From Trebouxia sp. TZW2008 (taxonomy: Eukaryota; Chlorophyta; Trebouxiophyceae; Trebouxiales; Trebouxiaceae), in NCBI GenBank assembly GCA_002118135.1, contig BDIU01000075.1:186001-250000 (forward strand): 64,000 bases of DNA, given 5' to 3'. This document shows positions 1-63,905 of the stretch, piece after piece (the stretch's first letter is position 1; each line of letters opens with the position of its first letter). The position numbers and the translations under genes are program-made. Below the pieces are notes generated by a model. The model ran no database searches. It was not told the origin of the DNA and saw only the letters and a program-made list of their open reading frames with translations.

Positions 1-112
1 TCAAGCCTGAGAAGCTAGCGTCACAACTTGCGTGCCGACAAGTGCACAACTGCAATGGTAGCAACTGTTGTTGTTGGCCTAGTGCAGGGGTTAGTAATCA
101 ACATGCTTTAAT

Positions 113-225
113 GATGCAGGTAGAGAAGCTGGCTCGGCACTTTGGAGTGGCAGAAGATGTGGCTTACACCTGTGAAACCGCTGCTCATTCCTGGCTGTTG
201 CACGTGCTCAGTCATTGGGAGGAGC
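113..225 (+). repeat. Echo copy of AQR exon 337-486 (first half)
   Basis: This stretch encodes a near match to the start of the following exon: [19 protein letters not shown] and then SWLLHVLSHWE. The similarity stops where the real exon continues with [10 protein letters not shown]. The spacing to the true exon is about 220 bp. It looks like a truncated tandem duplicate, because the matching reading frame ends without the exon's 3' end. Confidence 0.75.
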
Positions 226-336
226 ATATGAATACGCTATACTGAAGACATCAGTACCCCCCCCTTGAATGTGCTATATTGAAGACATCAACTTGATAGA
301 ACGGCGCCAAGAAGCTGACTGGCTCTCATCATGTAG

Positions 337-3300
337 GTTGAGAAGCTAGCCAGGCAGTTTGGCGTGGCAGAGGATGTGGCCTACACTTGTGAGACTGCTG
401 CCCACTTCTGGCTGCTACATGTTCTCAGCCGCTGGGAGAAGTTCTTGGCTCAAGCTCAGCAGAAGAAGACCAAGGAATGCATCAAGGTATGCATTGTACA
501 AGCTGATTTTATGTGCTGCCCACAATTTTGCACTTGCACAGACTTGCCAGTCTGTTCCTGCACTAAAGATCTCCAGTGCAGATTGATGAAAGGAGCTTGA
601 GATTGCACCGTCAGGCAAAGCCGCGCTATCATGAACGCAGCCTTACCTTGCCCTGGCATGCTTGAGTGAATAGCGTTTGGTTGGTGAAGGCTTGCTCATG
701 GCTATCACATTGTTTGCTGTGTGATAGCAGAGAGCAATCACAGCAAAGTCTGTCTTCACATTGTTGGGTTTGCTCAATGATCACCTGCTCACTGATCACC
801 AGCTACTTATTCAGCTGCTCACCAACCACCTGCTCAATTCTGTTACAGGAGTTGTTTCCTTCCAAAACCCAATTTGCAGATATCTCTGGCACCCTGTTTG
901 CTGATCAAGACTATGAGGCAGACCTGGAGAAGGCTCGAGGGCGTTGGCGTCACCTCAGGACCATGTTTCAGGAGCTGCATTATCATTGCCTGCTGAACAC
1001 TTGCTGACCACTTGCTTTCTGTTGCTGCAGGAGCTGTTCCCCTTCAAGACATACTTTGCAGATGCGCCAGGCACGCTGTTTGCTGGCCAGGACTATGAGG
1101 CAGACCTAGAGAAGGCACGAGGGTGTTGGCGACACCTCAGGACCATGTTCCAGGAATTGGAAGAGTGCCGCGCCTTTGAGCTGCTCAAGGCATGCATTTG
1201 ATACTGTGCAGCTGTCTGTCTGTCTCTGTGTCATCTGTGCCTGTCTGTGCATGTGCCTGTGCCTGTGTCTATGTCCGTGTCAGAGCCATTGGATTGTTGC
1301 CATGCATCAAGCCTTTCTTTGGCTTTATGTGCATATATGTGTGACCAGCCAAGAAGGCCAGTGGACTCTATTTGCGGCTTGGGCAGAGCCTGCCCCATGT
1401 TGTGGTGAGCATGAGTACAGAACAGGGAAGACTTTCCTTTTGGACCTGTGCTGGAACTCAAGCTCACCACAACAGGCAGTCTTGTCCTGCAAGCAGGAGT
1501 AGGCCATGAGCGTTGGTCCTCCACTGGAATCAGGCATATGTTTACAGCTAGGCAACACCTTTAATCACTATGAGAAGCCCAAGTTGAAACATGAACAGCT
1601 TTATGCTTGAATGCATCATGCTCTGCAAACTGGAAATGCTTGGTATGTATGCAGGGTCAAGCTGACGGGGTAAACTACTGCATGACTAAGCAGGCCATGT
1701 GATGCATGGGTAAGCTCATGATTGTCAATTGCTCAATGACTAAGCAGGCCATGTGATGCAGGGCCAAGCTGATAGGGTGAACTACCTGATGACAAAGCAG
1801 GCCAAGATTGTGGCAATGACGTGCACGCATGCAGCTCTGAAGCGGCGGGAGTTCCTGCAGCTGGGCCTCAAATACGACAACCTGCTCATGGAGGAGAGCG
1901 CTCAGATCCTGGAGATCGAGACCTTCATTCCCATGCTGCTCCAGGTCTGTTGCCCTGTGCACACACCTGCCCTAAGTTGCCCTTTGTACATACCTGCCCT
2001 GCATTGTGCCAGCCGTTCATACAGTCAGCTTCTATGCTAGAAGTTGTTTGATATTAGCATCGGGAGATTGTGCAGCTGGGACTGAAAATCACAACCTGCT
2101 CATGGAGGAGAGTGCCCGAATCCTGGAGATTGAGACCTTCATCCCCATGCTGCTACAGGTCTGCTCACCTGCTAAGCATCAAGGCTCTGTTCACCATTGT
2201 GGCAGTGCTTTGGCATTGCCGCAGCATTGGCATCTGCCCATCCGCATTGGCACTCTCGCTTTGCATGCAGGCAGCATGAACACCAGTGCGGATCAACATT
2301 GCCCATATCTGCACACCTGCCCTGACTTGGCATTATGAAGCACTGGCATCTGCTTGTGCGCAAGCGCACAGAGCCAATGCAGGATAGAAGCCAATGCCCT
2401 ACGTTTGCAGTATGCAGAATGCAATGCACTGTCTTCTGCCCTACATTGGCATAATGTGCTTCCTCACATGCAGCTCTTTGGGGTTGCTGTGGTCATATGC
2501 TGCTTCAGGCCTGCTCACCTGCCTTGTGTTGACCCTATGACGTTCACATAGGTGACATGTTGAGAGTGTCATGGTGCAAGATTGTACTAAATTGCCTTGG
2601 CGTCCACTCGACATTGGCAGTCGCCTGTGGGCAAGCGCACAATGCCAATTCAGGACAGAAATCATTTCTTTTGTTGGCATGCTGAGCTTGGATATCAGCA
2701 GCTGCTTTGGCTTGATATGGTCTGCTACTGCATCACGTCTGCACACCTGCCTTGCATTGACCCCGTGACTTTACACACAGGTTCCGTTTTCAAAGAATGT
2801 CATGGTGTAATGTTATTTGACTTGCAGTGGCGTCCACTCAGCATCGGCATCTACCTGTGGGCAAGCGCACGTTGCCAGTGCAGGACACAAGTCACAGCCC
2901 TGCATCGGCCTTGGTTGTTTGCTCACAGGCAGCTATTTGAGGTTGCTGTTGTCAGATGCTGCTTCACGTCTGCACACCTGCCTTGCATTGCCAGTATGAC
3001 TTTGCTGCAGCCCATTGCTGCTGCAAGTCTGCCTGTGCACACGTCTGCCCTGCGTTAGCACCTTTGGCTGGTTAATAATAATAACAATATTTACATGTTC
3101 CAGCATATACTGCTGGGTATGTGTGGCACAAGTCCTATCTCGCCAGGCAGGCTTGTCTTGAGCGTCGCAATATGGACGCCTGATGTTCAACTGTTGAAAG
3201 TCAGACAAAGCAATGTCATTCCAAATCTTCCTTGGGCGACCTGGAGGCTTTGATCCCTTGGTCAAACCCCTTGATCCGTTGGCTGGTTGCACCATCAGAA

Positions 3301-6300
3301 TCTGTGTCAGCACCCTTTTGGGCTGATCATGGTGGGTTTGAACCACCTGCTGCTCTAGGGCTACCCACCTGCCCCGCACTGCTGTTGTCTTTTGGCATAC
3401 TGTCAGCATGTTGACACTGCATAGGCAAGAGAATGGCTACAGCAGGCTGGAGCTCATGATTCTGACAGGGTAACACCATTGGCTGCCGTCTGTGGTGCAG
3501 ACAATGGGGATCTTACCCCGGTCCCTATCACCATTCTATAACCCTTCTAGCGTGCACGGCAGAGACAGGTCAACAAGTACAGCAGGCTGAAAATGATGGC
3601 TCTGAGTCTGACCAGCTGTGTCTATGCACTGCAGAGGCAGGAAGATGGGTACAACAGGCTAAAGCGTGTGATCCTGATAGGGGACCATCACCAGCTGCCT
3701 CCTGTTGCGAAGAACATGGCCTTCCAGAACTATGGTCTCTTGACCTTGGATATTGCCTCTTGATCCTGTGACTATACACTGCACAGTCATCTGATCTGAC
3801 CGTGTGTTTACGCACTGCAGAGGCAGGAAGATGGATACAGCAGATTGAAGCGTGTGATTCTGATAGGGGACCACCACCAGCTGCCTCCTGTAGTGAAGAA
3901 CATGGCCTTCCAGAAGTACAGCCACCTGGACCAGTCTCTCTTCACTCGCTTTATCCGCCTGGGTACACCTTACATTCAGCTCAATGCACAGGTAAGCAAG
4001 AATCAGTACTCTCCTCCCTAAGCACACCCACATGCCCCCCCCTCCCCCCCCCCTCCTCCTGTTGTTCTCTGCCTGGACTGTTTTCCCCCGTTTCAATTGC
4101 CTGGTTACATCTTACATGCTGCTCAATGCATAAGTAACACCCGGGCATTTCTCAAATTGCTTGTTCAGCTGTGCACAATCAACAGCATAGCAAATTTTGA
4201 GAGCACACTGCTCAGCCTACCTGTTCAGGTATGCATACGTAGCAGCCAAGCAGACCTCAGAATTTGGCCGGTAGCTGCCTTCATCTCAACACACACGCAA
4301 CGATCAAGGCTTCCTCAGATTGTTTATAGAGCTATGCACAGCTGGCAACCTAGCATCCTTGAGAGTACATTGCTCAGCCTGCCTGTTCAGCTGTGCATAG
4401 GTAGCAGCCAAGCAGACCTTAGTATTTGGCTGGTAGCTACCCTTTTCTCGATGCATAGCAAAACATCAAGCATTGCTCAGCCTGCCTGTTCAGCTGTGCA
4501 AAGGCGTCACCAAGCAGATTCAAGAGTTTGGCTGCTTGCTGCATTCAAATCAATGCCCACGTTACGCCCAAGCACCTGCCGAACCCATGATTGCTGAGTG
4601 GATTGCTCAAGTTTCCAGCTGACTTATTGACTGCTTGACTGATCAATTGTTTGATGTCATTGCAGGGAGGTGCAAGGCCAAGTTTGGCCAAGCTGTACAA
4701 CTGGCGGTCCTGGGCCCTGGGTGACCTCCCCTGTGTCACCCAGCAGGACCCCTAAAAAAAGCCATCCCTGACCTGGCCTAAGACTGATTGGTTTACTGCT
4801 GCCAATTTTTTCCCAACTGATTCATTGCTGGGTCCTGACTGTTGCAGGGGCGTGCAAGGCCAAGTTTGGCCAAGCTGTACAGCTGGCGGTACCAGGCCCT
4901 GGGTGACCTCCCCTCTGTCACCCAGCAGGACCCCTTAAAAAAGGCATCCCTGACCTGGCCTAAGACTGATTGGTTTACTGCTGCCAATTTTTCACCAACT
5001 GATTCATTGCTGGGTCCTGACTGTTGCAGGGGCGTGCACGGCCAAGTTTGGCCAAGCTGTACAACTGGCGATACCAAGCTCTGGGGGACCTTCCATCTGT
5101 CACGCAGCAGGAGCGCTTTAGGAAGGCCAACCCTGGCCTAGCATATGACTACCAATTCATCGGTGAGTGGTACTCCAGAGCATGCTCAATATGCTTTGCC
5201 ACTTCTGCTGTTGCGTGAGAGATATGCCAGCCTGGCCTATGATCGTAGGTGGGCCAAATCTCTTGCGCTGCTTCTGGTGATGCAGAGTACGAGCTCTGGC
5301 ATATACTGTGCCTGTGTTGCTTCATGTGACCAGAAACATTGCCAAGCTGTCAGCTTGTTGCACAGCCATCTGTGACACAAGCAGGTGTCTTCGCTGATAA
5401 ATCCGCATCACATGCTGCGCTGACATGTCTGCAAAGCACAACAAGGCGTTTCAGCCTGGCAAAAATAGCCTGACCTGGTGGCAATCAGACACACGGCTAT
5501 TCATGGCTTTGGTCTGTGCCATGCTGTCTTCTGCCTGCGCGGAATGGAATTTTGTGAGTCGACCAGGCATTGACTGGGTCAGTTCCAGTCATATGGAGAG
5601 ATTCGGCCCTATGAGCTTACTGTTTCTTAGGCTTGTGTCATGCAGACACTCCTGACTTTGAGGGTGTGGAAGAGTCGGTCCCTGTCCCCTACTTCTTCCA
5701 GAATTTGGCAGAGGCAGAGTATATGGTCACCCCGTAGCAAAACGTGCCCAAGTTGCCCCTGTGCTTGTGCTGTGCAGACACCCCTGACTTTGAGGGGGTG
5801 GGAGAATCTGTCCCTGTCCCCTACTTCTTCCAGAACCTGGCAGAGGCAGAATACATGGTCACGCTGTACCAGTACATGCGCCTAGTGGGTTACCCAGCTG
5901 AGAAGATCTCCATGCTCACCACCTACAATGGTCAGAAAGCTCTCTTGAGGGATGTAGTGGAGAGGAGATGTGCGCACCACCCAGCGTTTGGCATTCCCCA
6001 CAAGGTGAGGCTGCTGCTTGGCATGTAGTACTGTATGTTGGCATCCTTTACAAGATGGGGTTGCTGCTTTGCATGCAGTAGTGTGTATTGACATCTTTCA
6101 CAAGGTGAGGCTGCTGCTCTGCATGCAGCATTGGCTGCTTGGCACCTAGCAATTGGCAAACAGTTGCGGCATGACTTTTATGTGACAGGGGGAGCAAGGT
6201 GTATTTGACTGGTGAATGCTGAAAGGACCACATGCTCAGGTGCACTGTGCACTTCAAGTAACATCTGGTCAAGAAGGCAGCAGTCTGAGCATCTCGGGCA

Positions 6301-13788: not shown

Positions 13789-13799
13789 CTGCAACGTTG

Positions 13800-14630: not shown

Positions 14631-14633
14631 GCC

Positions 14634-15013: not shown

Positions 15014-15186
15014 ATAGCAGCCCCTAGTCCAGCAAACGTTGCTGAAGGCTCTGTTGAAACTTGGGCAAAGGCGCGTCCTTTCCCCTAGTTTCTGCAGGGT
15101 GCTGCAACCGTAGAACTTCACGTCACACAATGTTTAGACAATCAATCTGCTTGCATCTGCCCTTGGAAGCTGCCCGTACACCCACT

Positions 15187-17511: not shown

Positions 17512-17513
17512 TG

Positions 17514-18152: not shown

Positions 18153-18159
18153 TCTGCAT

Positions 18160-39301: not shown

Positions 39302-39309
39302 ATGATGCG

Positions 39310-42429: not shown

Positions 42430-42434
42430 GCTTG

Positions 42435-44486: not shown

Positions 44487-44827
44487 ATTGGTCTACAGCT
44501 GGGACCAGTCAAGGCTGCAGCTCATCACGTGAGTCATATGGGGACCAGGACTGCCATTCACAGACCTGCGTTTGCTTCAGGAAGCACATACTGTCGACTT
44601 CTTTGCCTACTAGTTTGGCAAAACCATTGTCAAGCCATTGCAGCAGCCGCAAAAGCAGCAGCACAGGCCGTGATAGCACTGGCTGTAGACTTGAAACCAG
44701 GCAAACTGCAAAGAAGAAGCTGCAAAAGCAGAAGTTTCAGCAGCTCAGAATGCCCATATTCAAGTCAGGTAAGCTGCAACAGCACAAGCCAGAGGTGCTG
44801 CAGCTGGGCACGCCACACCAAGGAAGC

Positions 44828-45470: not shown

Positions 45471-45490
45471 AGAGTCAAGCAAAGCAAGCT

Positions 45491-48105: not shown

Positions 48106-49030
48106 TGCGGTTGGGCTTCATACACAAATTAGGGACGCCAGCGCTGGAGAGTCTTGCAACTGGCTGCGTACTGCTCTCGGTCTCTGACAATGTAATTGTT
48201 AAAGCGCTGACCAGTCTGGCTACGTTGATCCTCTTCTTCTCAGTAAGGTCACTGCTTCTGAGTGTGGTGCCAGCTTCCATCTGTGTTGCTTGCATCGACC
48301 ACACCTTGAAGCCAGCTCAAAGCAGCCAGAGGTTTCACAAGCTTCAATCACTTTCTGCCGCAGTGCAGAGGCTGACACAACACGACGTTGTGCAGCAGCG
48401 TAATGGGAAGGCAGTATCCACTGGACAGACCTGTGGTCACTAAAGATGTGCTGATACTATGATAGCAGATTTGCAGACTTCCTGCACACTCAGGCCTTCA
48501 GTGCACTTGATCACTGATTGGAAACTCAGAACAAAAGGTTTTGTTAGCACTCTTGATCTGAGCATGCACTAAAACGGACTGCAGCGCCGTCATCAAATCA
48601 TACATGCTCATGCACTGTCATTACCGTACTGTAACGAAACAAATCCACAACAATCTTTGTTCAGATTTCTTTTGACGTTTTGCCTCCAAACATCTCAAGC
48701 TTTGACAACTTGCACGTACTGAAAGCTGGATCCACAAACAAAAACCATTGGGCATCATAAGTACTTGGCTTGGCCTGCAGATGTGACAACGTAGACACTT
48801 CGAAAGCGGAGTATCTTGCTGTCCAATGCTGTTGCCCGAACTGAGTCGATCCTGCCATCTGATAGTAACATTCAACTACTGACTGCCTGTTTGACACAAA
48901 TCACACTGACAGCTGGAGTAAACACATTATTGGTTACATTCCCTAGGTGCCAATGTCAGCAAGTTGTCAGCACAAAACTTTGACCTGAACACAGACATGT
49001 CACCTCCTGTACAAAGAAGTTTGCTACACA
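48106..49030. other. Intergenic region upstream of LRR 3 and downstream of the ABHD18-like gene
   Basis: It holds the promoter of LRR 3. A minus frame at 48304-48092 (EKKRINVARLVSALTITLSE) ends just inside the LRR start in another phase; no family was recognised. Confidence 0.4.
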
Positions 49031-49032
49031 GC

Positions 49033-49150
49033 GTCTACGCCACTGATTGCTGTTCCTCGGCACAGCTTTCCAAGTCTGTTGATGGAGCCATGAATGGCTT
49101 TCCCAAAAATTGGACGCTGCAGTAGAAACAATGAAACATGGATGACAGTT
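49033..49150 (-). repeat. Echo copy of the last ABHD18 exon
   Basis: The minus strand reads FLGKPFMAPSTDLESCAEEQ and then QSVA plus stop, a degraded copy of the true C-terminus FRRAIHDSIDRLESCAEEQQ then AVA (ending 49186). The similarity runs into the 3' flank (GGCATAGGC / GGCGTAGAC), so the duplicate includes the stop codon. It lies beyond the gene end. Confidence 0.75.
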
Positions 49151-49185
49151 CTGAAAACTGGCTACTGCAGCAGAGCATGGCTTGC

Positions 49186-52100
49186 CTATGCCACTGCTTG
49201 CTGCTCTTCAGCACAGCTTTCCAGCCTGTCAATGGAGTCATGAATGGCCCTTCTGAAAGCCGGCTGCTGCAGCAGGAAGGCTGAGACATGACCCCCCTTG
49301 ACCCACCTCACTTCAGAGCCAGGCCAATGAGCTGCCAGCTCTTCTACAGACTGAGGAGAGACATATGCGTCGTCTGTGGCACCAACCAGCACTGCAGCCT
49401 TTGTACACCTCGGCCTGCATAATTAAGAAGCTAGCTCAGCACAGAACATTGCAGTACACTGCAGAACACCAGTGTGCTGCTCAAAGCTGGCAGTCTGTCT
49501 GCATTGGGCCTGCATTTGTACAAGGTTGCCAAACAAGATGTGCAGAAAAGGGCCCTAGCTGCAACAGCCTTTGACTACAGCGATTGTATTGCAGCTTCTT
49601 CCAGAAGATAACACAGACGCTACTCTTTTGGAAAGGTTTATAAGTGTTGCAGACAGCTCAGAACCTTGCTAGTGACAGCAGTGACCTGAGTTGCAAAACA
49701 GGCTGCCATGTCAGAAACAAGGTGACAAGAGACCAGCTGGCTTACGCATGGAAACGGGTGACGTCTGTGTAGGTCTCCAGCACTTGGTGCAGGCGCAGGC
49801 AGGCTTGGTCTTCAGCAAGGCCCCGCCGCAAGCGCCACAGCTCCCCCAGCTCATGCTCAGCTGCATCGATGCCTGCATGACTCAAAGCACAATTTTGAGA
49901 AGAGTGAAGCCCTTGAGAATTGGGCTGTCATGTCTGTTGTGTCCTCTTTGCTGCAGGTGCCACAGCTCCCCTAGCTCATGCTCAGCTGCATCAATGCCTG
50001 CGTGAACCAAAGTATGGACATAAGGAAGAAGATGCATCAATGATCGCATGACTCTTAGAATGGACAAGCACAAGTCAACAAGCGGAGGGTCAGGCTATGA
50101 GTTCTATTGTGTCCCCAACGTAGCCACCACAGCTCCCTTAGCTGCATCAATAATGCCTGCAGGAGAAACAGCATGGATTTGAAGCTAGGCACTAACTTTG
50201 AACTCCGAGGGTTCAGTCTGTTGGGGCCTCAGAGAAGTTTGTGGGCACTGTGTCAGCTTTGCCGGAGGTACATGCTGATATGGCACAAGATTTACATTGG
50301 GTCCAACGTCACCTTCTCACACAACATTCAAGTCAAAACAGAATCTCCTGATGCGCGTGTCAAGCATGTTGCAGCTGCCAGCATCAGCTGTGACAAGGTA
50401 TGATGGCAAGTTGAATTGCCACTGCATGTTGATACAGCCGAGGTACTAGTCTACATAGGCAGTTGTATGTTTTTTTGTTTGAAGGTGCAACAGTACTTGC
50501 TCACTGTATTGTGTTTGAACGCTGTACTTACAAAAGGTGTGTCATGCTGACTGATTGCATCGACCTGATTTGACATGAGTTTTCTGACACTGTCCAACAG
50601 CTTTAACATGCACATCAGTATGCATGAACAAGCTGTTGCAGGGTGTGATACCTGAATTGGCTTGGTCACTGCCAGAGCTGGCGTCAGTATGTTGCTGCTG
50701 CCTTTCAGAGCTGTCCTGAACCCTTGCCTCAGCTTTCTGAGCTATCCTGTCAGTGAATGCTGCATTGGTTGGATGCCTGGTGGACTGTGCCTGGTCGCTT
50801 GCTCTCTTGAGCGTGGACAGGATGCGCGCCGTCTCTATCAAGCCGTCAGTTGACCTTGCAGACCTCAGTAAAGTGGCCTCGATCTCCTGCAGGACAGGCG
50901 CCTTGCTTGTCTCATCATTTATCCCTTGCCATGTTGAGGCTTGACGCAACTGCACTAAGTGTCTGTGCTGGAGCATTCAAATCCATAGTTGTTGCCATGC
51001 TGATTGATTTGAAAGCATGATCAAGTCGAGTTTCAGTATGCAGGATGCTGACGTCAACCATTAGCTCAGTTGCAGACATTGCCTGTCATGTGATCAGGTA
51101 GAAGATGCTCACAGTCATTAGAACTGTAGCTTGTATGCATAACAACCATGTCACAAAGCTGAGTGAGGGCTGACATACAAGAGCGCTGACGGTCACCGAG
51201 CCAAGTGCTACCTTCTGATTTTCATCCACCACTGCAGCCAGAGGTGCCCAAGATGTAGCAGATCTCAGGGCACCATGGCAGAACGCCCCAGAGGCAGATC
51301 GGGGGGCCAACAGAGGGGTGCAGGCCACATTTCCAGGGTAAAGAGATGCCACCATGCTGGCATGCACACCACCCATACTGAACCCGCACATGCCTATAGA
51401 GCACCACTCAGGCTTACAGGCCTGTTGCCTGAAACGATGGTTCGCATCTGTGCAAAGCAGACAGTGCAGACAGTACAGTGCAGACTTGCTACCATGCTAG
51501 CATGCACAGCACCCATGCTGAACGTGCACATGCGTACAAAGCATGAGTCAGGCTTGCAAAGCCATGGTTTGGCTCTGTCACCACAAAAGTCACAATGTAT
51601 CGCAAGCGCTAGTTGCAGTATCCACAACACACAGCATATGGCGCTATTCCATCACAAAGGCGGCGGTCAGTTGATGTGCCCATGTCCACAGCAATCTGTG
51701 AGAGATAACACGTGGACAGATGTACAGGACACTTCCAGATGGAAATCGGATTACGCAGGCTTGCTCACGTGAAAGTACATTGCCCCAGGTCGCTGACTTA
51801 GTTGCGCAAACCCATGACGGCCTGCCCAGTCCAGTAGGCACAAGATTTTTCAATGGTGGCAGTTCTGTTCAGAGACAATCTGGTGTCAGGGGTGTGATTT
51901 GACAACGACTGCACTCATCATATCAACATCACTCAAGATGCACCAACTTCTCAGGGACATTGGTGCTGACCTAATTGCGCAAAGCCATGACGGCCTGCCC
52001 AGTCCAACAGGCACAGGCTCTCCTCAATGGTGGCTCGCCCTAGCGTAAGCAGGTCACTCACTCTCAGCAGCTGAGATGCAAACTGGTAGTGGGGCTTGCG

Positions 52101-53519
52101 AGCGCCATAAAACGGGCTTTCCAACACCATTGTGGCAATACCCTACACAGGACATGAGACCTTGAGCGCAACTGGACTTTGAAACAGCAAGTGGCAGTAC
52201 ACTGCTTTTGGGGATTGTTGTGTTGACCTTTGACAGAGTCAGAGGCAAGCTGGTCAAGATGCAATGCAGCATCTTCTCAGGTCTGTGTTTGGCAAAAACG
52301 GCACAAGGCAGTAAGCTGCACGCTGCTGAAGCATGATAGCGTCCTTGCGTTTTCACAGCATAAGTGAAGTATTGCTGACCTGTTGCAACAGAGGGCCTCC
52401 CAAATTCATGCGCCTGCTCCAAGTGTGGTCGCCGGTGCCTGCCAGGTGCAGCACGCACGCTTTGCGCTGCTTGGGGTCCCTGGGCTGCAGCAGACGTGCG
52501 TGTGCAAGCCGGCTCTCTGGCGGCAGGGCATCATATACACGGCCATGACAAGGTGTCCTGCAGGTGTGGACGTAGAGTTGGGTCGGACCGCACTATGCTG
52601 CAAGTGTTTCTGAGCTTATGGTTTGTTGACCGCTTACCAACAAAACAAAACAACAGCAACAGCAGCAGGTCAACAGCGTGAGACGGGCATGTGCAAGACG
52701 CCCCTCTGATAGGAGGACAATGATACACGCGACCGTGACAAGGTGTCCTGCGATGGTGGTCAGCATTCAGGTAAGGTAGGTCACAGTGAAATGGCATTAG
52801 TGCTGTAGCTTTCGACATGTTGGCCACTTCAACATGTTGGCCACTTCAACATGTTGGCCAAAAGTGAAGAGCAGCACATGAACAGTGTGAGACAGGCAAG
52901 TTGGCTCTTTGCAGGCAGAGCATCATTCATGCAATCATGAAGGAAGGTGTCCTGCAGCAGGGATGAGCTTATGGCCTTGATGGGCTGACAGTACTGTGAT
53001 GACTCGATGTGATTGTTGTCATGTTGTACAAGTGCAGGCAGAACATGGTCATCATGGCATGCTGCTGATTCCGCCTCTAGTCCAGGGGAGCGTGCTAGGG
53101 GCATGCCCTGAAGCTGTTGCACTCGCACATGCAGCTTGCTGCCTGATGCTGCATTCACACCTGAAAGAGACTTCTAGCGTCTCACATTCAACACCCCAGT
53201 TCTTGCCTTGATACCTTGTATTCCAGTTGAGCTGCAGTGCAAACACCGCTTGTGAAGCTTTTCTGACAGTTGAAAGGTTCAAGCCTTAAAGCGTTTCAGG
53301 TACCGTCTGGTCAAAATGTGGAGGCGGCCAGGTGCGGAAAAGCTTTGCGTCTTCTTCGAAGTTGACTACCCCAAGGTCGCCCCAGCCCTTTTTAAAGAAG
53401 CCAGGACTCAGTCGAAGTTGGTGCACCAGGGAAGCATACACCAGGTCGAGCTTGCGTCCGGCTAGAAGGGCAATCTGGTCAATGAGCTGCAGCTGCTGGC
53501 CCGAGAAGAGTTGAACCAT
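49186..53519 (-). CDS. ABHD18: ABHD18-like alpha/beta hydrolase (DUF2048 family)
   Basis: Likely lipase or acyl hydrolase. Exons recognised: 53519-53304 (MVQLFSGQQLQLIDQIALLA, then LDLVYASLVHQL..FFKKGWG, the family start), ~52564-52386 (LPPESRLAHARLLQPRDPKQ and CVLHLAGTGDHTWSRR), 52142-51971 (MVLESPFYGARKPHYQF), 51393-51212 (MCGFSMGGVHASMVASLYPG, with the GxSxG nucleophile elbow GFSMG), ~50970-50652, ~49878-49746 (DAAEHELGELWRLRRGLAED) and 49414-49186 (VGATDDAYVSPQSVEELAAH for the acid, and VKGGHVSAFLLQQPAFRRAI carrying the catalytic His). The phases of the last pair and of 52142/51393 agree. At least one short exon between 53304 and 52564 is not placed. Several exons have echo copies. Confidence 0.85.
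49882..50170 (-). repeat. Echo copies of ABHD18 exon ~49878-49746 (5' part)
   Basis: GGCATTGATGCAGCTGAGCA..AGCTAGGGGAGCTGTGGCACTTG at about 50005-49960 matches the real exon start (AGIDAAEHELGELWRL) and gives AGIDAAEHELGELWHL before diverging. A weaker version lies at about 50165-50120 (GGCATTATTGATGCAGCTAA..GGGAGCTGTGGTGGC). The intron flank with TCTTCTCAAAATTGTGCTTT and related CTTCCTTATGTCCATACTTT also recurs. There are three versions in 420 bp. Confidence 0.75.
51430..51560 (-). repeat. Echo copy of ABHD18 exon 51393-51212 (nucleophile exon start)
   Basis: The minus strand reads MCTFSMGAVHASMVASL, against MCGFSMGGVHASMVASLYPG in the real exon. The catalytic GxSxG becomes TFSMG, so the copy would lack the first Gly of the elbow. 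The copy stops at ASL. Confidence 0.75.
51776..51875 (-). repeat. Echo copy of ABHD18 exon 52142-51971 (3' half)
   Basis: The minus strand reads GCCACCATTGAAAAATCTTG, TGCCTACTGGACTGGGCAGG and CCGTCATGGGTTTGCGCAAC, matching the end of the real exon (ATIEESLCLLDWAGRHGFAQ) and its GTCAGC donor (TAAGTCAGC here). The frame is broken by the altered GAAAAATC stretch. Confidence 0.75.
52680..52960 (-). repeat. Two echo copies of ABHD18 exon ~52564-52386 (5' part)
   Basis: Copy 1 (about 52760-52685) reads GGACACCTTGTCACGGTCGC..GTATCATTGTCCTCCTATCAGAG, and copy 2 (about 52956-52870) reads GGACACCTTCCTTCATGATT..GAATGATGCTCTGCCTGCAAAGAG. The true exon reads GGACACCTTGTCATGGCCGT..TATGATGCCCTGCCGCCAGAGAG. 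Copy 2 preserves DALPAKS for DALPPES. They are about 195 bp apart and truncated at the same side. Confidence 0.75.
52815..52860 (+). repeat. 17-bp tandem repeat (2.7 copies)
   Basis: ACATGTTGGCCACTTCA is repeated perfectly twice and followed by ACATGTTGGCCA. It sits between the two echo copies in an ABHD18 intron. Confidence 0.9.
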
Positions 53520-54028: not shown

Positions 54029-57000
54029 ATGGCAGAGTATCTGCACAGGGTGCTGGCTGGCGACATCGAGCTGGACTCGGTCAAAGACTGGATTGTAGGA
54101 AGCAGCGGTCTGCCGCCGACACCCTTGGGTTCAGGGTCTCCAAGGAGTCCCCCTACTAGCAGCAACGCGTTGGTCATCACGGCTGAGCAGCTGCGAGCTG
54201 AGACCCTGAACTACGTCAAAGAACAGGCGGACCTACTGTTCCTTGCCTCTGACAAGCGTGTTGCTGAAGCAAATGCTGCTGCTCAAGCTGACAAGGGGAG
54301 AAGCAGCTCCAAGCCAGCGTGGCCGGCAGGTCACGCTCGCTCACAAGCGCCTGGCCTGGTCACTGAGAACAGCTTCCCAGCCCTTGCAGTCGCCTCCGGC
54401 AAGGTATCGCATGCTGCCCTGAATTTGAATTCAAAGTAGCCCGGCATGGCCAGAGGCACCCAAAACATTGCAAAAGCAGCAAGCACTCCATCTGTCTGGC
54501 TGTTGGTGTGCACTGAGACTGCACACTGTGATTGTGAACCTGCAATAACCAAGGTTGCTGATGTTACCCATGCCCAAATGCCGTTGCCTGTAGCCTGTAT
54601 TGCTCGTGCAGAAAGATGCTTTGGACAGAAGACTCAGCCTTCAACCACCACAAGCAGCACACACTTCTTCTTCCTCACCTGCTCCTCAGAAGCAGAATCA
54701 GCGAGGCCGCAAGATAGCACCCACCAGGATACAGAGTGCAGCTGAGCCAATACTCCGAAACCAACTCCCGTTTGGCACTGTGTCAACTGGCCAGTTGCCT
54801 GAGGAAGAAGCTGCTGGCTTGGCAGTAGAAGCAAGCGCTAGAGACCTATTCTGCCCTGAGCAAGCATCAGGTACAGTCCTCATGACATGTTGATTGCTGC
54901 TTTGGCCTGATGAGCAGACAGCAGCAGTTTGTAGCTCCAGTGTTTCGTGGAATGGCTCTGGCAGACCATCACAAACATGCATGCTGCCACAGATATGGCC
55001 CTCAGTGTACAGTCATGATAGCAACGGCTGTTGCAGCTTGCATTCCAAGACATGACATCTGTGTGGCTGCCTGTACAAGGAGTCCTGATCACCTCTGACA
55101 TCACTGAGATTACTGAGAAATTTGTTATCTGTTCTGAAGCAGTGGCCACACTCAAACTTGATGCTTATCCACATCTATGGGCCATGAGACACTAGCCACT
55201 CAATTGCTGTGCTTTGCAGATCATCTGCAAGGACAGCTTGGACCTGTGGTGTCGAGTACCCCTCAAGCTGCAGCTCAAACGCCAAGCCCAGCACACTCAG
55301 CATGGAGCCGTCCCCTGACGCCTTCCTCAACAGGCAGCACAGCATCACAAGCACAGTCAAGACAGGCTGACGCTAACAGGGCAGTCAAGTGGCCCCAGCA
55401 GACACTGTCCCCTTCTGGCAGCATGAACTCTCAGGCTCACTTGAAACAGACCGATGCTAATAGGGCAATGAAACAGCCCCAGCAGACACTTTCGCCTGCG
55501 CTCAGCACACACTCAGCCCCTGCTACTGTGACACCCTGTAAGGCCTCTGGTAAGACCAAGCGCATCTCGCCAAGCCCCTTGGGAGAGGCCCCAGTGTCAG
55601 GTGCAGTGAATGGTGTGCGCTCAGGTCAGGCTTCTGCCTGGCAGAACTTGCATCACCAGCAGTCACACCATCAGCAGTCACATCATCAACGGTCACAACC
55701 TCAGCAGTCACATCATCAGCAGTCACATCCCCAGCAGTTGCTACCTGCCAACAGCCCCTCTCATGGGGTCCCGCTGAAAGCATCAGGGGGCAACATCAGG
55801 GCCAATGCTGACGGCCCACAGCTCAAAAAGGCCCTCAGCAGTGGCACTGGCAAACTTGCTCCAGGGTCTGGTCAGAAGGCTGCCTCCAGGCATCACAACT
55901 CCTTTGACTCGCCCCTTGGTAGTGCATGGGGCCGCCCAACTGCATCTGCAAACAGTGCATCGGCAAGTTCTGCCCCAGACAGATCAGCATGGTCCAGCCC
56001 AACCCTGCACAGTCACCAGAGCAGGTTACAACATGCTGCTTCCTACCCACAGCAGGACTCAGGTTCAAGTCCTGCTCATGGTCAAAACAGCAGGTTGCAA
56101 CACTCAGTCTCTTGTGCGCAGCAGCTGAGCTCTCCAGACAGCACTGCCACATCAGCCTTCACCCCAGCTTGGAAGGGCAGGGCTCCCCTCAGGAGCCCCC
56201 ACACGCCTTCCTCTGCAGCGCAGGATCCCTTTGCTACCCCTCAGAGACCCACCCAGACCATGTCTGGGACCCCACCAGAATCACAGACCAGGTCAGAGTG
56301 CGGCAGTACGGGCACTGATTACGCTACACCTTGCTCTACCTTGCATCCGTGGCAGGACGCTTCAGCAGAGCGGGAACATATGTCTCCTGACAATGCTTTT
56401 GGCACGCCTCAGGCGCAACACCTCAGCAGCCGCTTTGCATCTGAAGCAAGCTCTGCATCAGGTGCCTCACCATCACCATCACTGGGCTCTACTTCAAGAA
56501 CTCCCTGCAGCGCCTGGCAACAGCTAGCCTCAACTACAGATGCGCAATCTGAAGCCTCTTTGATGCTAGAGGCAAAAGCCAACAAGGTTTTGACTCATAG
56601 GCTTCAACAGGCATTGCCATCAGCTCATGCTGCACAAAGCCCCCCCAGCGCTCTGCATCAGCCAGCAACAGCAGAAGCTGGGCTTGTAAGCACAGGGTTT
56701 GCATTGCAGCAAGGAGGGTCTGATCATCTGGCAGCGTCTTGTGACCCATTGGCAGCTGAGCATCCGCAGCAGCTGCAGCAAGCCGCACACATATGTACAG
56801 ATCCCACTTTGTCTGACAAGGCACAGCGCCTGGCAAATCTTCACGCTCACATCATCACAGGTATGAGTGTGTGTCTGCTCAGAAGCAATGCACATGATCC
56901 AGAGCAGGAATGCCAGATTTTGAATCAAATGCGATTAATTTTTCTGTGTTTGCCTGCCCGCCTGGTCCTACATGAATGTTGCTTTGCTGTAGAGCAGATG

Positions 57001-60000
57001 ACCAGACATATCTCTTGACTACTGTATGCATGCTGTGCCTGCCTGCGTCCGGTCTGTACATTGGGCTGAATCTGTCTGTTTGCATGTGATCCAGCACCTG
57101 CCCTGTCTGAGCATGCTCAGATCTTGTGTGCCGTGGCTCTTCAGACCAACCTGCTGAACTGTCCCATAATTGCTCCACCATGCCCATCGCACGTTCACAA
57201 TTCTTGCAAACTGCATAACAGTCTCAGCACCTCTCATGAAGTGTACCAAGCTTTCACCCTGCTGTGCGGTTGTGCTGAGCGTGTCTCTAGCAGCTGAGCT
57301 GAACTTGTGGCTGCACCTCATTGCTCTGCCATAGCCCTCTCAAACGCTGCACAGCTTCACGCACAATGCATGAGAGTTTGCATGAACACCATCCATGAGG
57401 CTCCTTAGACTGACTCTTTGTTTACTGCAGTTGTACCTAGTGTGTCCCTGGCTGCTGAATTAGACCTGCTGCTGCACCTTATTGCTCTGCCTCCCAGCCT
57501 GGTGTTGACACCCTCCTCAGAGACGGACCTGCAGTTAATGTTCTCATCTGGGCCAGTGGCTGCACTGTATGCTAGTCAGGTGCTTGTTTTGTCAGGTGAG
57601 CCAATCTTTCAGCAACAAGGAGAACTTGGCCTTCACCAGCATGTCAATTTTGCATTGTATGCAGCTTAATTCTGCTTGAAGGTGCTCTTAACATAAACTC
57701 CTGTCCTGCTTCCGTGGCTTACCTTGCTTTAGAAACAATACAGTCTCACATCAAAGCATACAGCCCGCAAGGGCACTGACATTGCGCGCTCTGTTCAGGA
57801 AGGCTGATTCCTAGCTTGAGCAAGCACATGCTGGAGAGCATTGCTGAAGTGCCAACCTTGAAGCAGCACGCCCCGGCACTCATGGCAGATGCACAGCATC
57901 AGCTGGAGGTATGCCTTTGCCATCAGGCTCATATCTTGTTTGCAATGTTTGCAAGTGGCAGCAGCATCTTCTTAGGACACATGCGCTTAAGATTGGCAAA
58001 AGCAGTGTATCGTTGTAACCTTGAGTGCAAATCGTGGGGCCTTGATTTTTCGGCAACAAGGCCAAAGGGAAAAGGCTAAAAATGGCGTGTATGCAGATTG
58101 CGGTCGTGTATTCGCCATGCACATGCAATGGCTCCATCACACACCTTACAGTATCAAAGGTCTACACGCGCAGCCAACTTGTGTCAGATGTCTTTTTGCT
58201 TGCAGATGTTGAATGCAATGGCACTGCCACATGACGTCAGGCTGACTGGAGGCAGCAGTGGCAGGCATTTGTTTGGTGCTGGCGCATTCACTCAGGATGG
58301 GCAACCGCAGCGCACACAGGTGGGCTGCAGCTCTGGTGACATCTTGGCATGCACAGTGCTGTATGTTCTGCTTTGCATGGGAGAACCTTCATGTCCGACG
58401 GTTTGTCATTTGAGCTGCATCAGTTGCTGGGTATGTGTTGCGGCTCACGTTGGTGTGTACAGTGTAGCACAAACACCCTCTGTAGGGTAAGTTGAGGCAG
58501 GCAGGTTTAATGCCCATGAGTTCCTCAGCAAGTCCTGGTGCTGCTGGGTTGCCTTCTTCTGCTTGTATCTGCTTTCTGCTGGCTGTTGGGCTGCATAGTT
58601 TCCCTGGAAGCAAAAGGTCAAGCAGTTATGCAGCAAACTTGCTGAAAGGTGCCATTGACCAACACGAGCAAAGTCTTGGCTTGTTGTTTTCAAACTGCAC
58701 TTGTGAATGCATCACCGAGCTGCAGCATCATTTCAAGAGCATTTGGGGCATGCAGCTGAATTCCACATGAGGCGTGCCTAATCAGTATACTTGCATAAGT
58801 GCTCACAAGCCTGCCCAAACTAACGCAAGGTAGTCCCAGACAACAGGCCAGCACTGACAATGTCAGCAGCCATGCAAAGCCACTGTCAGCCGTGTACTGA
58901 GACCAGAAAAAGTGCCCGGTTGTCTATCAAGCAAGGCAAGCATCTGTGCAGGAAGCTTCTCATGAGCTGCACATTCAAAAAAAAGCTTGCTGTCATCAGA
59001 GCGCGTGTGTCACAAACTGCAGCGTAAATGCGATTCAGCTCAGCTTAGCAAGCATAAGCATTTTAATTTGGGTGTAGGAGGACCAGCGCAGAGTGAGCAA
59101 CATGAATGACTGCCGAGATGGATGGGCCAAGCTGATGCGGGCCGCTGCCGACCAGCAAACGCAGCCCTTCAAGGGCTCTTCTGTCAGACAGGGCCTTTCG
59201 CAAAGCCCTGCACAAGGTACACTGGACTGGCTGAAGTTTAGAGCATGAATTTATGAATGGAACAAATGGAAAGGGCCCTGCTGCAGTACAGATTGCTTGT
59301 GCTGGTCAGATCCTCTGTTGTCAAGCGATTGCAGAGTCGACAACACAGGTGTGCAATCCTGCAAACATTGTCATGCGTGATGACAGCTGCACTTGCTGCT
59401 TTTGCCTTGACATGCAGAATCCCATATGGCCATAATAATGATTGTAAAGCCATCAATCACATTGTGCGGCAAAGGACACAACAGCAGCTAGACCCCCCAG
59501 CATGCAGATGCCAATGTAGCTGTGCTGATGCATGCTCAGCAGCTTGCACAAACAACACAGTCCCTCCATGTCCTCCATGTCCAATTTAAATGATTCAGGT
59601 TAGCACATGACCGAACTGGTTGGAGACAGTTGATTGCTTCTGTACGTACCTAGATGGGGCTGCTAAGCCGGCCTAGCCCACGTTTACAATGAATGAGTGA
59701 ATGAATGAACAGGGACTCAGGAGCTTGACTTGCTTTGTATGCAGATGCCAATTGAGTTGTTTTGCTCTTCCAGCGATTTGTATAGCTTTTGGAACAACTG
59801 GCAGCTGTATACAAGCAGCATGCATAAGCGTCCACGCTCGGAAGCTTTGTCTTGCATGCAGATGCCAATGTGGCTGTGCTGATGCACATGCAGCAGCATG
59901 CAAGAAGATCATTGCGAGGCCTGCGCCTGGACAACTACGCCACCTTTGCTGAGCTGTTCATCACAGCCCTTCTTCAAGCTGCTGCCACTGGCGAGACCTT

Positions 60001-63000
60001 GCTAGATGATGACAGCCCCTCTACTCAGAAGCTGCAGAAGCTGGCTGACAAGGACACTTCCAAGTTCTACAGGCTGAATCAGCGCATGCAGGTATGCAGC
60101 TGTCCTTCGGTATGCCTTGCTCACTGCCACAAGTGCCCACATAAATGCCACAAGATACCACGGCATTCCAAGCTGCTGCCTTTGGCATGTTGCTCTTGCA
60201 TGATGCCAGTTGTCTACTTGTAAGCTGCAAACGCTGGCTGACAAGGACGCCTCCAAGTTCTACAGGCTGAAGCAGCAAATGCGGGTATGTTTACTGTCCT
60301 TTCATGGATACAAACTGCTGCCACAAGGGGTGAAAAGCCAAGCAGCGGCTACAGCTATGCTACAACATGTACAATATGCAAAAGCAGCCTCAAAACATGA
60401 CTACATGACAAGGCTATTTCCACTTCCAAGATTTGATGGCTCATTCCATACATGCATTACAGATTCATGATTGAGGGTGTGCAATCTATTGTTGCAGGGG
60501 CAGGCAGCAGGACACCGGCCCTCTCACCAGGGCAGATACGCCACCAACTCAGGAGGGGTCAGATCTGGTGGTAACAGCCCCTTTGCCTCGCCAGGAGTCG
60601 CAAGCCAGCCAAGCCACTCTGAGCCACTGCACTTTGGTTTCCAGTCGAGATCAAGCGGCAGCCTGACAGCGCAACAAAGCAGTGTCACAGATGCGGATTT
60701 GGCTGATGTCGCTGTGGCGCTGCAGTTTCCCCAGGCTCAGCGTCTGTTTGTCATGTTTGTCCAGGCTGCTGACAGCCACAAACTGAACTCCAGCCTTGTC
60801 AGGTCAGCTCTTGAACTTTCACTTGTGTGGCACAAGTCAAGCATGGGCAGAGCGTACTGGAAAACATGAGTAAAGCAAATAGGCCAACATGCGATTAGCT
60901 CCTAAAACAACACAGAAATGTTCTGGAAAGATTGTTTACGCTTGCTATTGTTGCTATGCCTGTCATCTCAAGCAGTCCTGTGGCTGCCTGTATAGAGCTC
61001 ACTCTGAATTTCTCTGACAAACGTGCAGACACTAGCATTGTTGTCATTATGGCACTGCAGTCTGATTGATCAAAATCCTGCATGAAAGCCCTTGACCATT
61101 GCTTGCAGGTGTATGCGGGCTCGCCTGCAGCAGATGCACCAGTCAGCCTTGACTGACAGCGCCACCTCTGACAGACTCAGAAGCGAGAGGCTTGTATCAC
61201 AGTGCTGCATTGCTTCCTTCCTCAGCCTCCTCACCTTCACAGGCAGCTGCGGCATTAGTCAGCCTCATGACTCATCCAGCAACAGTCACGTCTGCCCAAT
61301 CCCTGAGTTACACATAGCGCTGCAAGCAGCTCTGCACAGCAATATTGTTGAGTGGGTTGTGCCCTGGATTGTGCAATACCTCCGGTTCCTGAGTCATGAT
61401 GTTGACTCTCAGCACTCAAGCCAGGTTCAGCAGGTGTTGGGTTGCTTACGCAGCTTGCAGTCATGCGCAATTCTGTTGCCACAGTCAGCAGAATTTGGTC
61501 CTATGGCTCTGTGTCTGCGCACTGTGCTTGATGAGCACTTGGAGCAGATGGCAGACGTGGAAGTGATGCCAGAGGTTATGCCAGATGCCGACTGGTTAGC
61601 AGCCCTTGACAGCTGGCAGGCTGCAGTCAAGCTGAGTCGGTCTGTGCTGGATGTGCGTTACATGCAACTCTGCTGCCCTCTTTTGGAGCATGCAAGACAA
61701 GCTGTCCAGGTAAACTGAGCGTGGTGTACTTGTTTCTAATCCAGTTGCGTTTGCTCATTTGCAAGCCCGGTCAGACATGAGTTCCTTGCAGGAGCAGAAT
61801 GTCCATCAGCTGACTGATAAGGACTGTTGCCAGCTATGTGATTTTGTTGTCGCAGTCTCTGTATTGCATCTCAATTGTCTTGCTGAAATCTGTGTGATGC
61901 AACAATGAAAATTTGCCTGCACATGCCTGCAGGCTGCTGCTTCAGCAGAGGGCAGTCAGTGGGAGGGCAACAGGGCAGCGCTAAAGGGAGTACGCAAGAT
62001 CACCCCTTCACAGCCCCTAGGGGTCAGCCTCACCCCAAACTCAGAACTGCCCCCAGCCCTTGCAGCTGCTGTTGAAGGTGCTACAGGCAGTGACGCCCAT
62101 CCTGTGAAGCTCAAGCTGCAGCATGCCTTCTTGGAACAGTACAGCAGTAATGAGCACAAGGTAAAACTGATTGCTTTGCATTTGTACACACACTGGTAGC
62201 AATGCTCTTCCTGTGAAGCTCAAGCTGCAGCATGCCTTCTTGGAACAGTACAGCAGTGATGTGCACAAGGTCAGATTGGTTGTTGCTTTGTGTGTTTACA
62301 TACTCATTCTGCAAAGCTCAAGTTTCTGAATGCCTCCTTAGAGCAGTATAGCAGTTCTGATCACAAGGCAAGGCCAGCTTTTGCTTTGTGTTTGTGCATT
62401 TAGTGATGTTGTTGCAGGCTTGTTTTTGCATTGCTGCATCTCCATGTGCGGCAGCAGCAGCAGTACAGCAGCAGCGCTTGCACGCGTGAGCAGTAATTGC
62501 GTTGAGCTCACCCATGAAGTGACTCAACCTGGCTTGCTTATTGCATGTTGTCTGCAGGTTCGGTTGAAGGATGTTGTCACCTACATCACCAGCATCATTG
62601 CACAGAACGCAGTCAGCAGCAGCTTTGAGAGGTGTCTACCTGCGCTTGCCAAAACTGCAGCAGAGGACTTTTTCTCAAGGTGTCAGGACATTGTCAGACA
62701 ATCATCTGGGTCAAATAGTGAAGATCAGCAGGACAGCAGTAGTGCACGTGCTGGGCTGTCAACCCATGCAAGACTGCAGATTGATAGCTGTGCTGATAGC
62801 TGCGTGGGCTCTGCCTGTTATAAGGTGTGCTTCTTGAGCGGTCCTGCTCTTGTTTGCGTGAAGCGTTATTGACAGCAAAAGGATGTGTGATATTTGATAC
62901 GTTGCACCTCAGTCAAGCGTGTCTGGTTGCTGCAGCTTGATAAGCTAGCTTTGCACATGCCAACAGCAAGTTGCCAGCCAAGACTGCTGTGCTTTCCAGG

Positions 63001-63905
63001 CAAGAAAATTAGCAGATCTTGAAGCCAACATCAAAATCAGCCTCATGTTGAATGTTTTTCGAGTCATTCAACGTGAGGCTGCAGATGCCATGACATACAC
63101 AAGCCATAAACGTGCGAGCGTAGGTGCAGTCACAGATTGACATGTTCTCCTGTACATGCAGGCATTAGACGAGTGCTATAATGAGGCGGCCAAGGTTGTT
63201 GACCAGCAGGCAGTGCATGCACTAGCTGCTTTGTCTCCCCCAAGCTGGACAGCTGCTGTCATTGGTTCTGCTGCAGCCATCGTGGCAGAGACGGCCAAAG
63301 GCTCAAGCGCACAGCAGATTGTGTCACAGGTGATCCAAACAACATGTCTTGGCTGAGCCTGCTCCTACTTCTTGTGACAGACAGAGCCAGCAACGTTGCC
63401 AGTGTACAACGAAAGTTAGCACAGCAAACTGTGTCACAGATGATGCAAAGAGCTTGGCTGAATCTGCATCTGCACGCCCTGGTGAACAAAGCAAGCATGT
63501 GTGGTGTTCAGGCAAAACTGGCCTGGTGGCAACAGGACTCTGGTCATGCACACCTAGCACCCTTGCTGGGCTGTGTAAGCCACTGATTTCATGCATAAAG
63601 AAAGCAAGCAACAAGGCCAGTGCACATTGGCGCGTGTTGATCCTGTGCTTTCCCTGGACCTGGTGCTTGGCATCTTGTCGTTCAAATGATCTCCCATGGT
63701 CTCACTTGATGATAAATGATTGCCACACTGCAGCTGACTTCTAAGCATTGTGTGATACATATTGCTGAGGATAATTTTGTGTGATGTGCAGAGCACAGCA
63801 GTGCGTAAGCAGATCAAGCAGCAAGTTGAGAGTGCTAGTGCTGCGCTGATCAAGTCGTATACACGCCAGTCCGCTGCTCAAACCATGTCAACAATGAGTG
63901 AATGA
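54029..63905 (+). CDS. CDAN1: Codanin-1-like protein
   Basis: Animal codanin-1 is a scaffold that binds ASF1 and the nuclease CDIN1 and limits histone supply. Exons (all joins in phase except the edge near 59930): 54029-54403, 54612-54870, 55220-56860, 57431-57595, 57799-57908, 58206-58319, 59078-59216, ~59930-60093, 60498-60802, 61109-61709, 61933-62160, 62558-62824, 63000-63119, 63162-63329, 63792-63905. The N-terminus (MAEYLHRVLAGDIELDSVKD then WI, followed by a helix) and RGRKIAPTRI fit the codanin start. There is a 1.6-kb disordered Ser/Pro/Gln/His exon. The conserved C-terminal half includes SLSKHMLESIAEVP, ADKDTSKFYRLNQRM, SNIVEWVVPWIVQYLRFL, MQLCCPLLEHARQA, GVRKITPSQPLG and RLKDVVTYITSIIAQNAVSS. 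The protein stops soon after the AETAKG / VRKQIKQQVESASAALIKSY block, shorter than the animal protein. Introns hold echo copies. Confidence 0.85.
55645..55745 (+). repeat. In-frame HHQQS repeat inside the codanin disordered exon
   Basis: A 15-bp period, CATCA(T/C)CAGCAGTCA, is repeated about seven times, encoding (S)HHQQS and variants SQPQQS and SHPQQL. It is part of the open frame and probably a length-variable disordered segment. Confidence 0.85.
57240..57335 (+). repeat. Echo copy of codanin exon 57431-57595 (start)
   Basis: GTGTCTCTAGCAGCTGAGCTGAACTTG followed by TGGCTGCACCTCATTGCTCTGCC matches the real exon start (GTGTCCCTGGCTGCTGAATTAGACCTG, CTGCTGCACCTTATTGCTCTGCC; VSLAAELDLLLHLIALP). 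It lies 160 bp upstream and is truncated after IAL. Confidence 0.75.
59230..59920 (+). repeat. Codanin intron with repeated CATGCAGATGCCAATGTAGCTGTGCTGATGCATGC blocks
   Basis: The block GCATGCAGATGCCAATGTAG, CTGTGCTGATGCATGCTCAG at about 59501 recurs at about 59857 (GCATGCAGATGCCAATGTGG, CTGTGCTGATGCACATGCAG) and partly at 59740. The last copy runs into the acceptor side of the following exon, so the duplicated unit is intron-end sequence. Confidence 0.65.
60222..60290 (+). repeat. Echo copy of the end of codanin exon ~59930-60093
   Basis: AAGCTGCAAACGCTGGCTGA, CAAGGACGCCTCCAAGTTCT and ACAGGCTGAAGCAGCAAATG, then CGGGTATGTT, match the real exon end (KLQKLADKDTSKFYRLNQRM|GTATGC). The copy reads KLQTLADKDASKFYRLKQQM, is in frame and keeps a donor-like GTATGTT, but has no 5' half. 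Confidence 0.8.
62200..62370 (+). repeat. Two echo copies of the end of codanin exon 61933-62160
   Basis: CCTGTGAAGCTCAAGCTGCA, GCATGCCTTCTTGGAACAGT, ACAGCAGTGATGTGCACAAG|GTCAGA at 62211-62270 is almost identical to the real exon end (62099-62160, ..AGTAATGAGCACAAG|GTAAAA). A third, diverged version (CTGCAAAGCTCAAGTTTCTG, AATGCCTCCTTAGAGCAGTA, TAGCAGTTCTGATCACAAG|GCAAGG) lies at 62310-62370. The spacing is about 110 and 100 bp, and the flank TTGCTTTG(C/T)(A/G)TTTGT.CA is shared by all three. Confidence 0.85.
63330..63791. other. Last long codanin intron, with a short echo of the preceding exon end
   Basis: GCACAGCAAACTGTGTCACAGATGATGCAA at 63418 copies the real exon end GCACAGCAGATTGTGTCACAG|GTGATCCAA at 63309. 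Its donor GT is changed to AT. A CACCTAGCACCCTTGCTGGG string at 63550 resembles the LINE-tail terminus but is too short to claim. Confidence 0.6.

Follow-up and report, generated by a model that had tools for sequence, protein, structure and literature searches.

Why do the introns of some algal genes carry pieces of the genes' own exons? The question is raised by a stretch of 64,000 nucleotides (the window; G000:C73:186001-250000) of Trebouxia sp. TZW2008, which belongs to the genus described as the commonest lichen photobiont and has a genome of 68.5 Mb in 527 contigs. An initial annotation had reported at least 20 partial exon duplicates in the introns of four genes, namely, AQR, SGT, a codanin-like gene, and an ABHD18-like gene (ABHD18 below). 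The count holds: AQR, SGT, and the codanin-like gene contain, within the window, 24 pairs of which one member is an intronic copy of one exon end (an echo; 11, 7, and 6 pairs, respectively), and four further pairs fit ab initio exons at ABHD18 (Table 1). Comparison of the window with itself by blastn returned 56 pairs, mostly local and in direct orientation.

Exonic copies that cross one splice site

The AQR gene starts 12.3 kb upstream of the window and was modelled with 24 exons from a tblastn of a relative's protein (P0001) and splice-site reading. The modelled open reading frame matches relatives, and the AQR protein of the window is 84-85% identical to those of Trebouxia sp. C0006, C0010, and A1-2 and 73% identical to that of Myrmecia bisecta; a search of IMG/VR for AQR relatives gave no match. 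SGT, a member of the HPAT family with an additional ShK domain (Pfam), and the codanin-like gene were modelled by spliced alignment of P0121 (13 exons) and P0241 (14 exons), with low-complexity splits merged and some ends set by hand. Uncertain exon ends are the donor of AQR exon 23 and ends of codanin-like exons 3, 9, and 14. The ABHD18 exons are ab initio predictions; three of the four echo-bearing ones were part of the Pfam query with the ABHD18 hit (E=5e-38), and the exon at 52459-52557 lay outside it. The AQR intron after exon 18 opens with a noncanonical GC donor (GCATGC, 1190-1195).

At a threshold of 40 bits and offsets below 1.2 kb, the three modelled genes contain 55 local direct pairs versus 3 inverted ones. 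An exon is touched by 35 of the 55. The other 20, among them two echo-echo pairs and one dispersed repeat, lie within introns only; the duplications are thus not specific to exons, and repeats unrelated to exon positions, which the initial annotation had named as counting against its proposal, are in part present. In 33 of the 35 exon-touching pairs, the exonic copy runs across one splice site and no more, and the partner is found within the adjoining intron, upstream for acceptors and downstream for donors. The remaining two are an SGT exon 1 pair (40 bits), which ends before the donor, and an internal pair in codanin-like exon 3 (offset, 84 bp). In none of the 35 does the exonic copy cover a whole exon with both splice sites.

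The side on which an echo lies is a geometric necessity of duplicating part of an exon and by itself is no evidence; the evidence is in the missing classes, i.e., exon-internal and whole-exon duplications. Random placement with the observed offsets gave fractions of 0.353 one-site, 0.482 intron-only, 0.124 exon-internal, and 0.036 whole-exon pairs. Scaled to 34 one-site events, a number that includes the weak SGT exon 1 pair, 11.9 exon-internal and 3.5 whole-exon events were expected and 1 and 0 were observed, the expected numbers being generous because one-site events are non-independent and more readily detected. In addition, none of the 29 window events lies inside the three LRR reading frames (5.6 kb), where 2.8 were expected (P(0)=0.06).

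Intron flanks were profiled for 31 one-site pairs, all of the 33 except two rows of the SGT exon 6 array. Acceptor echoes outnumber donor echoes only slightly (17 to 14), in the direction that the initial annotation had claimed but not as the strong excess that it implied. The aligned extension into the intron, given there as usually 50-400 bp, has a median of 11 bp (range, 2 to 147). Similarly, the near identity claimed for AQR at 4.7-5.0 kb comes down to 90% in the alignment at the 182-bp offset, and SUF4, listed as free of duplicates, contains an in-frame duplication inside an ab initio exon (Table 1). Divisibility of offsets by three (26 of 45 open-frame pairs versus 34 of 112 elsewhere) was discarded as an indicator, since similar copies at a 3n offset share frames by construction.

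Density of direct pairs and decay of the copies

We sampled 25 loci, which total 304 kb or 0.4% of the genome; contig starts, which may be atypical, account for 15 of them. Twelve chaperonin loci were left out as non-random, as was contig C30 (L021, C30:1-10000), which looked odd: it has a GC content of 0.39, 868 Ns, and 88 direct plus 43 inverted local repeat pairs and is perhaps organellar or foreign. At a threshold of 50 bits, the sample holds 217 direct versus 2 inverted pairs. For the three modelled genes, non-exonic copies of exons at 80% identity or more amount to 1,620 nucleotides (nt) in sense versus 19 nt in antisense orientation; both contrasts exceed chance. The pairs reduce to 162 non-redundant events (0.53 per kb), and 12.4% of the bases lie in a recognisable copy. 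At least one pair was found in 22 of the 25 loci and none in 3. The median offset is 168 bp, with a single peak at 120-180 bp and only one event below 60 bp, likewise at a lower threshold, pair detection being weak for short periods. Tandem Repeats Finder reported 13 arrays in the window, 10 of them with periods of 50 bp or less. A genome search with the unit at 4660-5150, the only unit searched, matched one place, itself; repeat counts there are lower bounds.

The non-exonic copies at 80% identity or more correspond to 13.3% of the exonic nucleotides in the three modelled genes (AQR, 22.7%; SGT, 15.5%; codanin-like, 2.6%). The comparable load is given as about 2% in human, 0.08% in fly, and 0.06% in worm in the figures quoted from a published survey (PMC9013439), which used another method. 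The three-gene load is far above those fly and worm figures, a comparison limited by the difference in method and the small number of genes.

In the 12 chaperonin loci, which lie on six contigs, exon-touching pairs occur on three (C87, C170, and C237). Nine of the listed pairs have a copy on a Pfam exon match; seven cross one end of it and two lie inside. These three chaperonin genes and ABHD18 agree with the one-site pattern of the modelled genes. Between two chaperonin exon matches, L031 1904-2581 (C87:80210-80887) holds an array with a period of ~85 bp whose copies are 66-77% alike. An in-frame duplication of 324 bp at L024 3295-3773 reads as two domains that we take to be polyketide synthase acyl-carrier domains.

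Changes were polarised in eight three-copy sets, restricted to block limits. Exon-unique changes number 5, 6, and 25 at codon positions 1, 2, and 3, respectively, versus 36, 33, and 44 echo-unique changes (Fisher p=0.002); the latter do not depart from uniformity (p=0.42). In the AQR exon 21 set (2, 4, and 12 of the exon changes), exon changes are inseparable from those on the echoes' common stem. Because echo-unique changes are even and exon-unique ones uneven over codon positions, the echoes behave as neutral DNA: they decay neutrally, and the exons are constrained. Identities of the 162 events peak at 80-85%, with 2 events at 95-98% and none at 98% or above. The range up to near identity described by the initial annotation was thus not recovered, and the lack of young pairs weakens its notion of a continuous process and gives no support to ongoing activity. 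A steady process should yield at least as many young pairs as old ones, so either near-identical copies were collapsed in the assembly, which may explain their lack, or the rate fell. The sample is depleted in CpG (observed/expected, 0.38) with an excess of TG and CA, which suggests decay of methylated CpG. Repeat-induced point mutation was considered and rejected; transitions make up 2,015 of 3,591 mismatches, and no clear sign of it was seen.

Origin of the copies and alternative explanations

We consider it probable that random short-range direct duplication underlies the pairs, copies over one splice site being spliced away and decaying as echoes and other exonic duplications being purged. 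Errors in the repair of breaks or replication forks, the most likely source, would place a same-orientation copy, often 50-200 bp long, at a distance of about 100-250 bp, both inside and outside introns. A duplication over exactly one splice site would leave the full exon intact next door; exon definition would then pick this exon, which alone has both splice sites close together, so that the mRNA would be unchanged and the partial copy would become intron and decay neutrally. Duplications wholly within an exon would persist only where they keep the reading frame, and those of whole exons would be purged, the net effect being intron lengthening. Splicing appears to ignore the echoes, to judge by relatives' proteins, which lack them, and the missing classes were presumably removed by selection. 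If the exonic copy decays more slowly and other exonic duplications are purged, this can account for the association with exons. The mutational habit proposed by the initial annotation thus agrees with the pairs in 22 of 25 loci, with the decay of one copy, and with the lengthening of introns; it is not specific to exons, however.

Several observations weigh against random duplication of this kind. Among the 147 events with offsets of up to 400 bp, 56 abut, as expected of the small tandem duplications that the annotation had envisaged, but 91 have a spacer of at least 25 bp. The spacer is homologous to a flank in only 4 of the 91 (at the 99% control level) in a conservative anchored test, versus 53-97% for simulated tandem duplications; a free local test was positive for 5.9% of the scored spaced events (88 selected) versus 1.2% of controls. 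At the echoes, similarity is lost on the intron side sooner than would be expected if a tandem unit decayed neutrally (z above 3 in 5 of 31 pairs; 42% in simulations at a divergence of 0.3). Codon position 3 shows 2.5 times as much mismatch as positions 1 and 2, more than the factor of roughly 1.7 that we would expect for a purely neutral echo (32 of the 33 one-site pairs; the AQR exon 22 donor row was left out). One-site pairs, which come in arrays of two to three copies and hence are non-independent, are also more readily detected than pairs confined to introns. Exon-touching pairs are absent from chaperonin contigs C144, C44, and C348 (three of six sampled genes), and the complete lack of events at 98% identity or more is unlike a steady ongoing process.

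A rival explanation, to which we give a small chance, is copying that starts or stops at exon-intron junctions, whether coupled to RNA or splicing or by templated insertion next to the junction, in place of random tandem duplication. Similarity stops 2-15 bp past the splice site in 20 of the 31 profiled pairs, and ungapped identity drops from 0.64-0.93 on the exon side to 0.27-0.46 at 11 bp and more into the intron (0.25-0.28 in the control). At loci outside the motif training set, 13 of 62 spaced pairs have a splice motif where the matching block ends, versus 19 of 504 shifted controls (p=6e-6), but not significantly so in abutting pairs (2 of 41 versus 7 of 338; p=0.25). An exon that decays more slowly than its intron flanks would likewise end the similarity at splice sites, however, and the flanks of echoes retain weak residual homology (mean z, 2.3; above 2 in 12 of 31). 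Median offsets of spaced and abutting pairs are alike (169 and 154.5 bp), and intron-only pairs exist. Among the 33 listed events of at least 88% identity, 3 have clean borders, with overlaps of 0-3 bp, and at least one independent case, L015 4457/4603 (93% identical), is not a simple tandem duplication. The choice is between tandem units of ~160 bp, the unconstrained half of which has decayed or rearranged, and copying tied to splice sites; we favour tandem units because spaced and abutting offsets are similar and exon-internal segments appear to be nearly never copied into introns (1 of 35). It is also unlikely, in our view, that Trebouxia introns are largely built by local copying in ~160-bp, nucleosome- or Okazaki-sized steps with splice-site-linked breakpoints, exons seeding the growth of their own introns genome-wide. 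The correspondence of the offsets to what we take to be nucleosome or Okazaki fragment sizes is only suggestive.

Use of the echoes as alternative or mutually exclusive exons, a role that the initial annotation had considered, is improbable. Of the mapped echoes, 15 of 17 acceptor and 10 of 14 donor ones retain the splice dinucleotide, no in-frame stop interrupts 25 of the 32 echo alignments (most of them 10-40 codons long), and mismatches are in excess at codon position 3. However, no exonic copy spans both splice sites, in-frame stops occur in 7 of the 32 alignments and gaps in several, and echo-unique changes are spread evenly over codon positions, so that constraint on both copies was not found in the eight three-copy sets. 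In addition, internal repeats are absent from all 19 algal proteins of these gene families that were checked, and the sequences of relatives matched by the four echo peptides tested are those of the ordinary exon.

A further alternative is an assembly artefact in which diverged haplotypes or strains were placed one after the other. The lack of events at 98% identity or more is as expected for allelic rather than duplicated copies, and contig starts are frequent in the sample. Three-copy arrays at fixed offsets, neutral decay confined to one copy, the absence of N from the window, and the pairs in most sampled loci speak against such an artefact, which is unlikely for copies 65-95% identical and, as an account of the echoes, very improbable. 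Introner elements are dispersed families of repeated DNA that shape introns, and remnants of such a mobile element, although suggested by the many introns affected, are the most remote of explanations, since each echo matches its own neighbouring exon and the one unit searched, at 4660-5150, matched only itself.

Feature catalogue, related systems, and significance

Beyond the echoes, the window contains a dispersed repeat, related LRR reading frames, and further local repeats (Table 1). The minus-strand reading frame at 2933-3436 resembles what we take to be the 3' end of a long interspersed nuclear element.

Table 1. Echoes and other repeat features of the window (positions in nt of the window; offsets in bp; exon, the true or ab initio exon that is echoed)
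Feature	Position	Strand	Exon	Identity (%)	Offset	Remark
AQR exon 17 echo, acceptor kept	105..224	+	337-486	78	217	P0001-based exon model
AQR exon 18 echo, acceptor kept	825..973	+	1031-1189	80	182	
AQR exon 19 echo, acceptor kept	1645..1697	+	1762-1944	83	106	
AQR exon 19 echo, donor kept	2061..2171	+	1762-1944	84	215	
AQR exon 20 older echo, acceptor side	3415..3507	+	3821-3991	75	398	AG lost; in-frame stop
AQR exon 20 echo, acceptor kept	3601..3732	+	3821-3991	88	189	
AQR exon 20 echo, donor kept	4099..4137	+	3821-3991	85	142	
Two AQR exon 21 echoes	4660..4967	+	5030-5162	90; 80	182; 364	182 bp apart
AQR exon 22 echo, acceptor kept	5631..5747	+	5778-6004	85	132	
AQR exon 22 echo, donor side	6099..6144	+	5778-6004	83	100	Only 6 exonic nt
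SGT exon 3 echo, acceptor kept	28669..28765	+	28832-28999	85	135	
SGT exon 3 echo, donor kept	29240..29315	+	28832-28999	91	313	
Two SGT exon 6 echoes, acceptor side	31396..31761	+	31878-32059	77	475; 241	
Two SGT exon 6 echoes, donor side	32135..32340	+	31878-32059	91; 82	136; 275	
SGT exon 7 echo, acceptor kept	32571..32640	+	32739-32861	73	164	3 in-frame stops
ABHD18 echo, donor side	49035..49140	-	49195-49414	75	151	Ab initio exon, in Pfam query
ABHD18 echo, acceptor side	49950..50012	-	49746-49872	87	125	Ab initio exon, in Pfam query
ABHD18 echo, donor side	51792..51860	-	51971-52142	86	173	Ab initio exon, in Pfam query
Echo, acceptor side, probably ABHD18 gene	52681..52751	-	52459-52557	77	189	Ab initio exon
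Codanin-like exon 4 echo, acceptor side	57265..57330	+	57431-57595	76	161	AG lost
Codanin-like exon 8 echo, acceptor kept	59500..59548	+	59862-60091	88	354	
Codanin-like exon 8 echo, donor kept	60169..60289	+	59862-60091	78	194	
Two codanin-like exon 11 echoes, donor side	62209..62398	+	61933-62160	76; 74	109; 207	
Codanin-like exon 13 echo, donor side	63419..63467	+	63162-63329	76	110	Weak (40 bits)
Codanin-like exon 3 internal duplication	55362..55497	+		79	84	In frame; sole exon-exon pair among 55
SUF4-like gene, duplication inside ab initio exon	20187..20371 (20187-20254/20304-20371)	-		85	117	In frame
AQR intron-only local direct repeats	2339..3003	+			228-501	
AQR intron-only local direct repeats	4148..4572	+			103-265	
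Dispersed repeat	3073-3260, 25501-25552, 29503-29722, 30481-30594, 33076-33125	Both				
Three related LRR reading frames	37316-39367, 40645-42456, 46336-48117	-		63-65		DNA identity over longest alignments; Pfam LRR for first
Local direct repeats	44816-45463				99, 178, 353	Glutamine- and lysine-rich stretch without identified gene

Short tandem duplications are described in one study (PMC5730883) as a prominent product of the repair of breaks with overhangs. The Trebouxia pairs resemble such products of paired nicks and fill-in end joining in being direct and local (217 direct versus 2 inverted), whereas they are mostly spaced (91 of 147), cluster at offsets of 120-180 bp, and reach a very high load. 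In the intron gain by tandem duplication outlined for a potato RdRp gene (PMC4974935), a duplication is likewise neutralised by splicing out one copy; there, however, it makes a new intron, whereas here existing introns are lengthened. Such gain starts from a wholly exonic segment containing AGGT; in 33 of the 35 exon-touching pairs, the unit instead runs across a splice site that was already present. Tandem exon duplication with mutually exclusive splicing also places exon copies in neighbouring introns, but the copies are treated as possibly expressed exons in that survey (PMC9013439), whereas those of this genome are partial, carry one splice site, and are decaying. We found no description of exon echoes in the main text of the Trebouxia genome papers or in literature-search listings, and the word "tandem" occurs 0 times in the main text of those papers.

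The echoes document, densely and in a natural genome, the ways in which genes withstand small duplications, those over one splice site being absorbed by introns, and they are a measurable source of intron lengthening. They also call for caution in gene prediction, as a simple ab initio exon picker called several echoes exons. The genes of this alga offer a system for testing both exon-definition splicing and the origin of short duplications.

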